IMG/VR virus record: IMGVR_UViG_3300037827_001079
Location: 1-24,134 of that record
Source: a virus
DNA: 24,134 nt
Strand: one strand, 5' to 3'
Positions 2,684 to 12,974 of the stretch are shown here, piece by piece. The notes under the pieces were generated by a model. The model did no database searches and had not been told where the DNA came from. It saw only the letters and a program-made list of their open reading frames with translations. Made by a program: the position numbers and the translations under genes. Position 1 is the stretch's first letter, and each line of letters opens with the position of its first letter.

Positions 2684-4693
2684 TTACTTGAGGGATTGAG
2701 CGACGACGAACGCCTGGGGATACTTGAGGCAAACGTCGGTGAGCATGAACGTCGTGAGCTCGATCATCCCCTGTTTCTTGAGCCGATACGGATCGACGAC
2801 GAGCTCGAAGCCGCTTCCCCACATCCCGATCACCATCGTCGAGAAGACGCCGAGGATCACGGTCTGACAAACCGCTCCCGAGGATCCGCGGACGCCGGTC
2901 TTCGGAACCTGATTCGAGGAGCGAGCCACCAGTCCATCGACGGTGTCGTTATCTGCCCAAACCGGAAGAGCGATTGTGTTCGCCATCCGAGGAGTGAGCT
3001 TGAGGAGCGATTTGATCGACGGGGTCGTGAGCCACGCGGGGTTGCCGAGCTGATCGGCGTTCACATCCTCGAGGTCCTCGACCATCTTGATCACGTCGGC
3101 GTATGCGATCTCGCCGCCGTTGCCGGAGTCGGACGCGACGATAAACGCCTGGACGCCGGTCGTGTTCATGATCCCGACGGGAGAGTTCCCCCCGCTCGGT
3201 CCATTGATCGCGGCGTAATCGACCGCGAGAGCCATGTCGCGCGCGAGGTCCTGACGGACCAGCGTATCGACATCGATCACGGCCTGGGCGAGCAACTGCC
3301 TCGAGTAGCTCGTCGAGGACTGATACGTGTGCGGCGCGCTCGGCACCTGACCGAGCGTGAGGTTCGAATCCGCGACATCCGAGCCGGGATTTTCCGCGAC
3401 CCAGTATCCGGTCGCCGTTCCGGTTTGCTTCGGGAAAGCGACGTTGTCCCGGAGCCCCGAGATCGTCGTCGCGCCGAGCTCTTTCACGCGCATCGAGTTA
3501 TATAAAAAATCGATGAACGCTCCCGGCTCGGTGAACTTGAGCTCCTGTCCAGCCGTCGCGACATTCGAGGAGAGTCCCGCGCGCTTCGAGATCGCGTGGA
3601 CGTTTTTTACGCTCCAGGGGACGAACAGCCCGCCGTGGTTTCCGCCTTTGTGCGATCGCTCGATTGTCTGAGAGATCTCGAGCTCGAGGCAGTTCTCGCG
3701 CTTATCTTCGCCCGCTTCGTCGTTCTGAATGAGCGTCATGATCCCGCGTGCGAGGTTATATTCGCGCTGCTCTTTTTCGGTTAGCTCGAGCTGCTCGGCC
3801 GTCTCCGCCGCTCCTGGGGTTGTGTTGGGTTTCGCCGATCGGGATGCGACTTCCTCGAGGATCAAAGCGGAAACGGCATCGATCGACCGTCCCTCACTGA
3901 TCCACGTCGCGACGCGCTCCTGATCGATCCCGTGACGCTTGGCGAGTTTTACAATCTCGCCGGCCGTCTTGCGGGACTCGATTAGAACTTGAGCATGATC
4001 TGTTTCCGCCATACTTTCCTCCGTGGTTTGCTCGGCCGATCTTTCAGCCGAGGGGTTGAGAACCTTAACGGGGAAACCGCGCTCCCCCGCTTTCCGGTTG
4101 TGCCCGACTGAAGGATCAGCAGGGACCGCGACCGAACTTGTTTCGAGCGGCGTCCAGGACGTGGCGCGATATGTGTCGCCCTCGTCCTTCGAGGACTTGT
4201 CGAGCGTGTACTCGTTCACGCCATAGCCGACCGAGATATATTTTCGGATCCCGTCGACGACATCGCGCTTCACTTCTTGCGCTTTCGGGTTCCGCGAGAA
4301 CTGGACGACGCCTCGAAGGACTTTTTCCTTTTTGTCGAGCTTTACATCGTTCACGACTCCGACGATCGACTTCGAGTCATGCGAATCCAGGAAGGAGAGC
4401 CCGTTCTTCGCGCGCGTGAGATCGACCGCTTCCGGCGTGTGATCGAGTATTTCCTTTCCGAACCATCGCTGGACGGGGAACTCGGAGGAGATCGAGATCT
4501 CGAAGCGATCCTCGTCGGCGCCTTCCGGATCGTCGTCGTCCTGAGCGGCCGCGCGAGCTGCGAGCTCCGCCTCGGTTGGTTTCGCCCGCTTGATCTTTTT
4601 GAACGTTGCGATCGCAAACTCTCGAGTTTGCATCGGAAGGACCTCGCCGTCTTTGACGGGGATCGTACGTGTGAGCTCTTCTGCCTTGGTCAT
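2684..4693 (-). CDS. Fused HK97-type prohead protease and major capsid protein
   Basis: This 669-aa polyprotein joins a maturation protease to the HK97-fold capsid protein. Residues about 60-200 are an S78-type prohead protease: His105 in LSFLDSHDS, Ser154 in KYISVGYG, and the family's WTPLETSSVAVPADP at about 180-194. Residues about 230-300 form a charged helical linker like a scaffold or delta domain. From about 310 to the end is the capsid domain, with the E-loop and P-domain-like region, a GYWVAENP motif at about 428-435 and the C-terminal FELVVDPYRLKKQG motif. The start is the ATG at 4693, overlapping the portal stop as ATGA. The fusion implies self-cleavage releases the capsid subunit during assembly. 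Both activities are expected from the domains, not shown. Confidence 0.9.
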   Translation of the reverse strand: MTKAEELTRTIPVKDGEVLPMQTREFAIATFKKIKRAKPTEAELAARAAAQDDDDPEGADEDRFEISISSEFPVQRWFGKEILDHTPEAVDLTRAKNGLSFLDSHDSKSIVGVVNDVKLDKKEKVLRGVVQFSRNPKAQEVKRDVVDGIRKYISVGYGVNEYTLDKSSKDEGDTYRATSWTPLETSSVAVPADPSVGHNRKAGERGFPVKVLNPSAERSAEQTTEESMAETDHAQVLIESRKTAGEIVKLAKRHGIDQERVATWISEGRSIDAVSALILEEVASRSAKPNTTPGAAETAEQLELTEKEQREYNLARGIMTLIQNDEAGEDKRENCLELEISQTIERSHKGGNHGGLFVPWSVKNVHAISKRAGLSSNVATAGQELKFTEPGAFIDFLYNSMRVKELGATTISGLRDNVAFPKQTGTATGYWVAENPGSDVADSNLTLGQVPSAPHTYQSSTSYSRQLLAQAVIDVDTLVRQDLARDMALAVDYAAINGPSGGNSPVGIMNTTGVQAFIVASDSGNGGEIAYADVIKMVEDLEDVNADQLGNPAWLTTPSIKSLLKLTPRMANTIALPVWADNDTVDGLVARSSNQVPKTGVRGSSGAVCQTVILGVFSTMVIGMWGSGFELVVDPYRLKKQGMIELTTFMLTDVCLKYPQAFVVAQSLK

Positions 4694-6426
4694 TGCAAGA
4701 CCTCCAAATTTTTGCCGCTCGCGTCGTCATCGCCGCCGGATCCGGATCCGCCGCTTCCTCCGGAGTCGTCGCCGCCGGCGCCGTCGCCGCCGGTCCCATC
4801 GTCTTCGCCTGACTGATCGGTCGGAGCTCCGAGAGGTTTCGTTGCGCTCGGAAGCGTGAGATCGATGTCCAGCGTCTCGGCGAGATCCAGCTCCGATCGG
4901 ATCTCCTCGAGGACCTCTTCCCAGTCCTCGCCCTCTTCCCCGAGCACTCGGGTTCGCGAGGTAAGGTTGGCGCCGATCGAGAGCACCGCGGCCTGTGCAT
5001 CTTTGAGCGGATCGACCCATTGCCAGCCGCGAGGTTCCCACTTGCCGGCCTTGAATTTTTCCGGATCGCGCGAGTCGAGGACCAGGCCTCCGAAGTCCAT
5101 CGCGCATAGCAGGAAGTCTTCGAAGACGGGCTCGCAGAGGTTTTCGATCATCCAGGACTGATCGCGCTTCCACTGATCGCGCTCGATCAGGAGTCCGGAT
5201 CGCATCGAGGAATAATTGACCCCGATGAGATCAGAGGCGAGCGCGTTGTAAGAGACGCCGAGTCCGGTCGCGATCTGTCGCATGATCGTGATGACGAAAT
5301 TCGGGAACGCGTTCGCGGGATGATCGGGGTTCCACTCTTTGAACGTGAGTCCTGGGGGAAGCGTCTCGATCGTTCCCGGGTTCGCCTCGAGGACAAACTT
5401 TTTATCTGGGTTCGGTTCTTCATACGCCGACGCGTCGGTGTACTCGAGCCACCCCATCTTCGCCGCTCCAGTGCGCGCGGCGACGAGCTCCGCCTCGATG
5501 TATCCCTCGAGCATGCGGAGCTGGAGCATTACCGGATGGAACCATGTGACCCCGCGGGTCTGAGCGACGCGCTCCAGGTCGTAAAGATGGATTATGTCCT
5601 CCGCCGGGATCCGCTGTCGGTCGAGCGATCCGCCGAGGTCGCTCGGGTGGCCTGGGTTGATCCAGTACGCGACGGGTTTCCCCCACTTGTCGACCTCGAT
5701 CCCGAGCCGGATCTCGTTTCCGTTCTTCGAAGGGGGGACGGAATACAGGTGGTCGCACTGATCGGAGTCGATGAGCTGGAGAGCGAACTTAAACTTATTC
5801 CCCGCGAACCCGCGGACCTTTCGAACGAAGACCTCGCCGTCGACCGCGGTGTTTTTGAGCGCGGTCTCCTGGACGCCGCGGAAGGAAAGACGCCCATCGA
5901 CGGTGCAGTTTTTCTTCTTCGACCATTCGGAGAACGCCGCGGAGATCTTGTCGTTGATCGGTTTCGACAGTACGTCTTTCAGCTTTCCCGTTCCCTTGCA
6001 CGCTTTGCAGGGGGGAGGTGGCGGAGGATCGGGAGGAGTCTTTGCGGCCGCGGCCTTCGCTTTCGTACCGTTCGCCGGCGGAACTACGATCGCCGGCGTC
6101 TCGCCGGTCCCCTCGCACTTCGGACAAACCGCGGAGCTGTTTCGGACCTGGGGACGATAGCCGATCCCCTTCGAGCCGACGACGTTCGCGAGGAGAAGAT
6201 TGATAAAATTTTTCGCGATCGGATTGTTGCGCGAGAGCTCACGGCCGCGAGCTCTCAAGAGTCGAAGGTTCCCGCGGATCTCCTGATCGGCCGAGAGTAT
6301 CGTCGCGATCCAGTCGAGCGTGAGCCGCGTCCCAGATGCTCCGGAATAGATCGTCGCGTTCGAGCGCTTCTCGTATCCGATGAACTTGAGCGCGCGTTGA
6401 AGGAGCGACGGGTTCTTTTTCGTCAT
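4690..6426 (-). CDS. Portal protein, lambda GpB family, with zinc-finger-like insert
   Basis: The 578-aa product forms the dodecameric ring through which DNA enters and leaves the capsid. Lambda-type portal motifs are visible: LSRNNPIAKNFINLLLANVVG near 65-84, VDGEVFVRKVRG near 195-206, the QLIDSDQCDHL segment, and LASDLIGVNYSSMRSGLLIE in the C-terminal half. Residues about 97-153 carry an insert with two CxxCxGxG motifs, CPKCEGTG (Cys101/Cys104) and CKACKGTG (Cys140/Cys143), separated by an Ala/Lys- and Pro-rich linker. This resembles a DnaJ-type zinc finger. The C-terminal 45 residues are a Gly/Ser/Asp-rich, probably disordered tail. The ATG at 6426 overlaps the previous stop as ATGA. Confidence 0.92.
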   Translation of the reverse strand: MTKKNPSLLQRALKFIGYEKRSNATIYSGASGTRLTLDWIATILSADQEIRGNLRLLRARGRELSRNNPIAKNFINLLLANVVGSKGIGYRPQVRNSSAVCPKCEGTGETPAIVVPPANGTKAKAAAAKTPPDPPPPPPCKACKGTGKLKDVLSKPINDKISAAFSEWSKKKNCTVDGRLSFRGVQETALKNTAVDGEVFVRKVRGFAGNKFKFALQLIDSDQCDHLYSVPPSKNGNEIRLGIEVDKWGKPVAYWINPGHPSDLGGSLDRQRIPAEDIIHLYDLERVAQTRGVTWFHPVMLQLRMLEGYIEAELVAARTGAAKMGWLEYTDASAYEEPNPDKKFVLEANPGTIETLPPGLTFKEWNPDHPANAFPNFVITIMRQIATGLGVSYNALASDLIGVNYSSMRSGLLIERDQWKRDQSWMIENLCEPVFEDFLLCAMDFGGLVLDSRDPEKFKAGKWEPRGWQWVDPLKDAQAAVLSIGANLTSRTRVLGEEGEDWEEVLEEIRSELDLAETLDIDLTLPSATKPLGAPTDQSGEDDGTGGDGAGGDDSGGSGGSGSGGDDDASGKNLEVLQ

Positions 6427-7212: not shown

Positions 7213-7368
7213 TTATATCGCCGGGAGCACCTTTCGCGGCCTTCCTCCGAGCTTCCCGTTCGCGCTCGAGCTCGCGGCCTTCGCGTCTGATCGCGCGAGC
7301 CCGCCTTTCCTGCCGATCTTCGCGAGGTACTCGGAGAGCGCTCGCGGGAGCTTCTTTGCTTTCGTCAT
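7213..7368 (-). CDS. 51-aa basic protein with IGRKGG motif
   Basis: This 51-aa protein is the last gene of the accessory cluster after TerL. The start is the ATG at 7368, overlapping the previous stop as ATGA. It is strongly basic, with the segment ALSEYLAKIGRKGGLARSDA at about 10-29 and a GRPRK tail at about 42-46. The IGRKGG pattern is one I recall from very small proteins in bacterial genomes, often annotated hypothetical and carrying a repeated KGG-type motif. GRPRK resembles an AT-hook core, so nucleic acid binding is possible. It may have been picked up from a host. The function is unknown. Confidence 0.7.
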   Translation of the reverse strand: MTKAKKLPRALSEYLAKIGRKGGLARSDAKAASSSANGKLGGRPRKVLPAI

Positions 7369-7703
7369 GACTTCCCCCCTTTTTCGAAAAAGACTGTTGA
7401 TGGCAACCCGAAAACCGCGGACCAACCTATCGCGATGAACTCGGAACACGCGCGGAGCTGCCCGCTCCACTTCGCCGCGCGAAGGCCTGGGTTCTCTTCC
7501 TGAGCTCGCTTCATGAGCGCGGTCCAGTTCTCGCAGTCGATCAGTTCCGAGCACTTCGAGCAAGCAAGCCAGGGACCGACATCCTCCCAGAGCGAGGGAT
7601 CGAGATCCGGCGTATCGAGCAACAGGTGAGCTTTGGGCTCGTACTTTTTCCCGACGCTCCAGGTCGGCGCGCTGCAAAAATCGCACTTTCCCTCGGCCCT
7701 CAT
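7365..7703 (-). CDS. 112-aa zinc-ribbon-type protein, unknown function
   Basis: This protein begins with an ATG overlapping the previous stop (ATGA). It has Cys7/Cys10 in KCDFCSAP and Cys48/Cys51 in ACSKCSEL, a spacing that suits a zinc ribbon, plus Cys57. The CDFCSAP start followed about 40 residues later by a W-AC-KC segment is a pattern I recall from small uncharacterised proteins in bacteria and phages. It sits among six coupled small genes between TerL and the connector genes. A late accessory or host-takeover role is possible, but nothing in the sequence defines it. Confidence 0.75.
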   Translation of the reverse strand: MRAEGKCDFCSAPTWSVGKKYEPKAHLLLDTPDLDPSLWEDVGPWLACSKCSELIDCENWTALMKRAQEENPGLRAAKWSGQLRACSEFIAIGWSAVFGLPSTVFFEKGGKS

Positions 7704-11582: not shown

Positions 11583-12974
11583 TTAGGGAGCGACCTCGAG
11601 CTCCTCGGGGATCGCGATCTCGACTGGACCGCGAGCTGCGACCGCGCGTTGGGGATCGCCTTTCAGAAACACGAGTATGTTCTGGTGCGTCTTCGCGAGC
11701 TTCCCCGTCGTCGAGAAGGTCTTCGCCGCTCGGATAGGAAGCGATCCGAGAGCCGTGACGAGAATCGCCTCGTTGTAAAACTCGAGCCCCGCTTCCCGGA
11801 ACGCGCGAACCGTGTCGCCGACAAAATTCAGATAATGCCCCTCCGTGTCGCGCACTTCGCCGACGACGAAACAGGCGAAGCGATCCGCCTTTAGAGCCGA
11901 GCAGCTCGCGGAGATGATCTCCGAGTACGCTTCGACGAACTGCGGATATTCCATCGTCGAGAGATCCAGGGGGTTGTCGCTGTATCGCTCGAGCCCGACG
12001 TAAGGCGGAGAGGTGAAAATAAAATCGAACTGCTCGCCCTTCGTCAGAGATCCCAACCGCCGGGAGTCGCCCACGGTCCACTTCGGAGCGGTCTCCTTCT
12101 TGGTCAAGATCTTCCGAGCCTGTTGTTCGTTTGCCCGGATCTGTGCCGAGCTGAGATCGATCCCGCGATACTTCCGGCCGAGCTTCGCGGCCACGATTCC
12201 GCGAACGGATCCGCCGGCGAAAGGATCGAGGACGACGCCGGCCGGCGGAGCGAACCAGCGATAAGCGATTTCACAGAGAACCGGATCGAAGATGCTCGAG
12301 CCCGTCTGCGCGCCGGTGATGAGCTCTTTCCCCGACGCCTTCGCCTTCTTGTACTCGCCGAGCTTGGCGTATCCGCCGGCGTTCGCCACATCCGAGAACC
12401 CGAGCATGTTGTCATCTCGGCCGAGCTCGCTCCGGATCCCGAGCGCGATCCACGCCCGCTTCCGATCCTGCCACCAGCCGTCGCGCGCGCTGAGGACGGA
12501 GAACGGAGGGACCAGGAACTTATCGGCGAGCCGGCCGGCGATCGCTTCCGAGTCGACGCCGGCCAGGATCCGCTCCCACTCCTCCGTTTCGAATCCGGTC
12601 ATCGACAAGTCGTAATCAGCTCCGCGGAGATCCTCGAGCTCGAGCTTTAACAAAACCTGATCCCACTCGGCGCCTTCGTTCGTGCGATTGTCGGCGATCC
12701 GATACGCGCGGACCTGATCGGCCGAGAGCTTCTCCGCGATGTGGACGGGGACCTCGGCGAGCCCTAATTTGTGAGCGGCGAGCAATCGCGTATGTCCGAC
12801 GATGACGACGAGCTTCTTGTCGGTAACGATCGGTTGCCGGAATCCGAACTCCTGGATCGAGCGCGCAACGCCGGCGATCACTTCATCGCTTCGCGTGCGG
12901 GGGTTCTTGTCGTACGGGATCACGTCGCCGATCTTGACCTGGAGGACCTTGTATCCGTGGCCGTTCTTTTTCAT
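11583..12974 (-). CDS. ParB-like nuclease domain fused to DNA methyltransferase
   Basis: This 463-aa protein has a ParB/Srx-type domain at about 9-100, with NPR at 24-26 and the core motif GHTRLLAAHKLG at 60-71. A linker is followed by a SAM-dependent DNA methyltransferase: AdoMet-binding motif I LDPFAGGSVRG at about 249-259 and catalytic motif IV TSPPY at 321-325. SPPY-type motifs occur in amino-methyltransferases for N4-cytosine or N6-adenine; the target base and sequence cannot be read from the protein. Such ParB-MTase fusions are common in phages and may protect phage DNA from restriction or take part in packaging-related marking. The ATG at 12974 overlaps the previous stop as ATGA. It lies immediately before TerS. 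Confidence 0.9.
   Translation of the reverse strand: MKKNGHGYKVLQVKIGDVIPYDKNPRTRSDEVIAGVARSIQEFGFRQPIVTDKKLVVIVGHTRLLAAHKLGLAEVPVHIAEKLSADQVRAYRIADNRTNEGAEWDQVLLKLELEDLRGADYDLSMTGFETEEWERILAGVDSEAIAGRLADKFLVPPFSVLSARDGWWQDRKRAWIALGIRSELGRDDNMLGFSDVANAGGYAKLGEYKKAKASGKELITGAQTGSSIFDPVLCEIAYRWFAPPAGVVLDPFAGGSVRGIVAAKLGRKYRGIDLSSAQIRANEQQARKILTKKETAPKWTVGDSRRLGSLTKGEQFDFIFTSPPYVGLERYSDNPLDLSTMEYPQFVEAYSEIISASCSALKADRFACFVVGEVRDTEGHYLNFVGDTVRAFREAGLEFYNEAILVTALGSLPIRAAKTFSTTGKLAKTHQNILVFLKGDPQRAVAARGPVEIAIPEELEVAP

Follow-up and report, generated by a model that had tools for sequence, protein, structure and literature searches.

A predicted half-DnaJ zinc-knuckle insert in the wing loop of lambda-family portal proteins from a small group of uncultured phages

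The insertion of DnaJ-like fingers into core phage proteins has a precedent in the DNA polymerases of HMO-2011-type phages, which carry a partial (half) DnaJ domain (PMC9038755, PMC6918029). Zinc-braced loops are also known near the portal, as the stopper of phage 812, a neck protein, has a Zn(Cys)4 loop that acts as a rigid element, and the portal wing surface of the same phage anchors DNA (PMC12886913). The portal of phage R4C is divided into a wing (residues 1-300 and 394-475), a clip (324-376) and a crown (476-551), and two residues of a 10-residue loop (99-108), R100 and K105, contact the layered genomic DNA, as seen in medium-resolution maps (4.7 A for the portal-adaptor, 11.5 A for the C1 vertex) (PMC10276861). 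We analysed a window of 24,134 nucleotides (the whole of the stretch studied, positions 1 to 24,134 of IMG/VR virus record IMGVR_UViG_3300037827_001079), in which a portal protein of this family carries two DnaJ-like knuckles.

The open reading frame at 4690-6426 on the minus strand encodes a lambda-family portal protein of 578 residues. It matches Phage_portal_2 (PF05136) at 2e-94, with 317 bits against a cut-off of 32.9, along the whole length of the family (profile positions 3-354 of 354). The AlphaFold2 model, built from 118 alignment rows (a 17-row run was poor, pLDDT 52.7, and was set aside), has a mean pLDDT of 86 and a pTM of 0.80, and confirms the portal fold: Foldseek returns the R4C portal 8gtd first (E 1.1e-25, TMt 0.85), followed by the lambda and Chi portals. 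Its neighbours match the GpA terminase and capsid families with conserved synteny, as befits a head gene. The Gly/Ser/Asp-rich, low-complexity C-terminal tail (about residues 540-578; 4693-4809, minus strand) differs in length among relatives, and its pLDDT is below 50 from residue 546. The adjacent capsid gene (2684-4693, minus strand) is a 669-residue open reading frame in which an S78-type prohead protease (weak Pfam match, 8.9e-5) and a phage capsid domain (4.4e-33) are seemingly fused. Between the terminase and portal genes, a 112-residue open reading frame (7365-7703, minus strand) has spaced CxxC pairs (CDFC, CSKC) and may encode a zinc protein. Elsewhere in the window, a 463-residue open reading frame (11583-12974, minus strand), read by eye from the sequence, resembles a fusion of a ParB-type N-terminal domain with a DNA methyltransferase.

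The portal core, the domain order and the conserved DNA-contact positions are common to this protein and to the solved lambda-family portals (R4C 8gtd, lambda gpB 8k38/8xow, Chi 8vhx). The difference lies in the wing loop from R95 to N158, which has 46-69 residues with two knuckles here and 12 in close relatives. The accessory insert (residues 97-153; 5968-6138, minus strand), which alignments and surveys do not find in other portals, directly follows NVVGSKGIGYRPQVRN. Translation of 4690-6426 bears out the first-pass annotation in finding CPKCEGTG and CKACKGTG within these residues, and shuffling the portal protein 200,000 times with its composition preserved never produced two CxxCxGxG motifs. 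No tandem repeat was found within the insert. On the minus strand, the elements are an outgoing strand (residues 95-100; 6127-6144), a first predicted zinc knuckle (CPKCEGTG, residues 101-108; 6103-6126; C101, P102, C104 and G106 invariant), a variable Ala/Lys/Pro linker (residues 109-139; 6010-6102) of 31 residues here and 13 to 36 among homologues, a second predicted knuckle (CKACKGTG, residues 140-147; 5986-6009; C140, C143, G145 and G147 invariant) and a return strand (residues 148-153; 5968-5985) leading into a helix at 155-168. In the model, DSSP assigns strand to residues 95-96 and 99-100 on the way out and to 148-149 and 152-153 on the way back, the pairing being taken from the DSSP pattern. 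Both knuckles lie in blocks of about pLDDT 92, and the linker drops to 60. A beta-hairpin stalk tipped by both knuckles is thus well supported as the predicted structure of the insert, and the secondary structure and confidence of the model are consistent with one closed metal site.

The relation to DnaJ is partial. The best solved-structure match of the insert profile is the E. coli DnaJ Cys-rich domain (1exk, 1.8e-5), and PF00684 is matched by each of the 10 insert sequences scanned, at E values of 0.1 or below (best 3.6e-5); the cut-off of 32.7 bits is not reached either by the insert (18.1-18.7 bits) or by the whole portal (13.4). The CxxCxGxG knuckles are common to the DnaJ domain and the insert, but every member of our set has two repeats, as against four in the central domain of DnaJ, and one predicted metal site rather than two, and no J domain appears among the Pfam matches to E 1 in the portal protein. 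Membership of the DnaJ family was rejected on these three grounds (repeats, J domain, PF00684 score). The two motifs are conserved together, as expected for a half-DnaJ zinc knuckle. The earlier description of a DnaJ-type zinc finger therefore stands as a DnaJ-like zinc-knuckle insert and has to be reduced to half a finger. The HMO-2011-type polymerase carries the same two-repeat module, likewise inserted in a core phage protein, but there it separates the exonuclease domain of a replication enzyme from its polymerase domain, and the carrier is not a virion protein (PMC9038755, PMC6918029). The phage 812 stopper resembles the predicted insert as a zinc-braced four-Cys loop in a protein of the head-tail neck, but has a CPC...CxxC pattern, lies below the portal and is unrelated in sequence (PMC12886913). 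Anti-TRAP and the zinc fingers of phage antitermination Q proteins have two-repeat or related DnaJ-like motifs and give weak profile matches, but these are regulators and the carrier proteins are unrelated. No description of a half-DnaJ insert in a portal was found in the literature searched. As the module is known as an insert in phage polymerases, we regard the portal insert as a variation on a known module.

The same insert is present in 14 further IMG/VR contigs, with portals 72-89% identical, from 13 other metagenome samples, a recurrence that excludes an assembly artefact. These give 11 distinct inserted sequences, the window's own included. All four Cys are kept in every one of the 11, and each of them is encoded by TGC in some sequences and by TGT in others. 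Eight core C/P/G positions (101, 102, 104, 106, 140, 143, 145 and 147) have a dN of 0, with turnover among synonymous codons. Over both whole knuckles the median dN/dS is 0.15, against 0.67 in the linker, where the mean dN is near 1; one sequence (L013) has Ala in place of the last Gly of motif 1. The simplest reading of this pattern is that purifying selection acts on a predicted zinc-binding core, whose two halves are separated by a loop that is free to vary.

The insert is genuine and conserved, a rare accessory to the portals of a small set of uncultured phages. About 118 relatives lack it; among 133 distinct related portals, those lacking the motifs have 42-53 residues where the inserted ones have 78-101 (two motif-less fragments that stop short of the compared segment were left out of this range). 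In 89 further distinct PF05136 portals from four bacterial phyla there is no CxxC pair, and the corresponding segment spans 21-41 residues where the window's portal has 82. In all, about 200 lambda-family portals from outside the insert clade lack the insert. When 50,697 phage records were searched by tblastn with the insert region, the portals matched either gap across the insert or match only downstream of it, and a scan of IMG/VR for the pattern QVRN-x4-CPxCxG returned only the contigs of this set and unrelated proteins. A weak match to residues 105-145 (L233) was discarded, having no CxxCxG motif. The claim that such a finger is not a normal part of lambda-type portals is upheld by its absence from the relatives, from the 89 PF05136 portals and from the isolate portals comparable by tblastn; the opposite outcome, set down beforehand, that most GpB portals have the insert, fails in these surveys.

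When the insert columns were left out for tree building, the 11 inserted portals grouped with three insert-less ones (L011, L018 and L138) in a single, well-supported clade of 14; the insert-less three have an ordinary short loop of 12 residues from R95 to N158. As these three relatives do without it, the insert is not essential to the portal. The starred branches of the tree force at least three changes of gain or loss; one gain and two losses fits, although the same counts are compatible with other mixtures of gain and loss. Local identities around the insert site did not point clearly to any recombination donor. The gene order around the portal is identical in the inserted and insert-less relatives examined and their capsid proteins are homologous, so that the insert came without a visible partner gene, and none was seen when one was sought in these neighbourhoods. 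A pattern search of 84,980 species genomes found no prophage with the insert, nor did a search of 396 genomes of the phylum of the closest prophage found. The latter (L100), in a Terriglobia (Acidobacteriota) MAG, has a portal that is 55% identical and lacks the insert; an acidobacterial host is only a guess. Another lambda-family portal, in an Acidobacteriales MAG (L120), has a CxxC pair (CTDCGALP and CWSCGMEK) at its extreme C-terminus, about residues 523-548, perhaps a separate zinc ribbon.

Where the insert lies in the portal can be judged by comparison with R4C. With phmmer, residues 47-97 align without gaps on R4C 52-102, and N158 aligns on R4C 111. Arg95 (6142-6144, minus strand) is thus the equivalent of R4C R100 (PMC10276861), and the insert falls inside R4C 99-111, overlapping the DNA-contact loop 99-108. 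By alignment, then, the insert sits in the wing domain, in the loop that in R4C contacts DNA, and the clip or crown location proposed in the first-pass annotation is unsupported. Of 118 portals, 100 have a basic residue at the R95 position, and in the other two DNA-contact regions of R4C basic residues are likewise conserved here (R270, R272, K457 and K462). All 11 inserted portals have a loop net charge of +3 to +9, and the 107 others range from -3 to +3, a difference that is partly due to loop length and that counts as one observation, not eleven, since the inserted portals are related by descent. Together, the position and the positive charge of the loop favour a DNA-facing role.

The best explanation, in which our confidence is evenly balanced, is a zinc-braced basic hairpin that reinforces the anchoring of DNA to the portal inside the capsid. 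On this view the wing loop is drawn out into a stalk of two strands with both DnaJ-like knuckles at its tip; C101, C104, C140 and C143 would jointly hold one Zn(II), and the disordered, basic linker would lie farther out. A dodecameric portal would display twelve metal-braced, basic hairpins, which, if oriented as homology suggests, would point from the wing into the lumen of the capsid. They would start from the loop that in R4C meets the layered DNA through R100 and K105. Phage 812 supplies precedents, in its DNA-anchoring wing surface and, separately, in the Zn(Cys)4 loop of its stopper (PMC12886913). The benefit would most likely be added anchoring or organising of the packaged DNA around the portal. 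The three clade members that manage with the short loop count against the DNA-anchoring reading, as does the medium resolution of the maps from which the R4C contacts were read. So do two general properties: a Zn(Cys)4 site is itself negatively charged, and DnaJ-type knuckles bind protein more often than DNA.

This preference for protein speaks for the hypothesis that the hairpin is an assembly contact aiding incorporation of the portal; it would dock either on the scaffold/protease portion of the fused capsid protein or on the capsid's inner wall. The adjacent gene does encode such a fused S78-type protease and capsid protein, and the edge of the R4C wing lies against the capsid wall (PMC10276861), but the aligned R4C loop is the DNA-facing one, and with gene order and capsid proteins shared by the examined relatives with and without the insert no partner gene tracks it; we consider an assembly contact somewhat unlikely. 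We judge unlikely a local zinc staple that would do no more than stabilise the portal, or a neutral decoration, neither of which would have a specific partner: the variable linker, the repeated changes on the tree and the otherwise unchanged portal core speak for it, but relatives without the insert have the same core, and the strict conservation of both knuckles and the consistently positive charge suggest more than neutral decoration. The least likely alternative, in which the insert would bring in the host DnaK/DnaJ machinery or itself serve as a chaperone, is highly improbable: the one point in its favour is that the sequence resembles the DnaJ Cys-rich domain, and the host-chaperone suggestion made earlier finds no support in a protein with two of four repeats, no J domain and a PF00684 score below the cut-off.

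One might speculate that the DNA-anchoring hairpins form, as a ring of twelve, a dedicated genome-anchoring collar, a half-DnaJ finger put to use in a structural protein and dispensable in some close relatives; we offer this as a tentative possibility. Structures are only beginning to reveal how portals hold and organise packaged DNA. Close relatives with and without a predicted zinc hairpin in a loop that probably faces DNA constitute a natural series, which would allow a direct comparison of its role towards DNA, and a virion protein joins the short list of phage proteins with a half-DnaJ finger insert.
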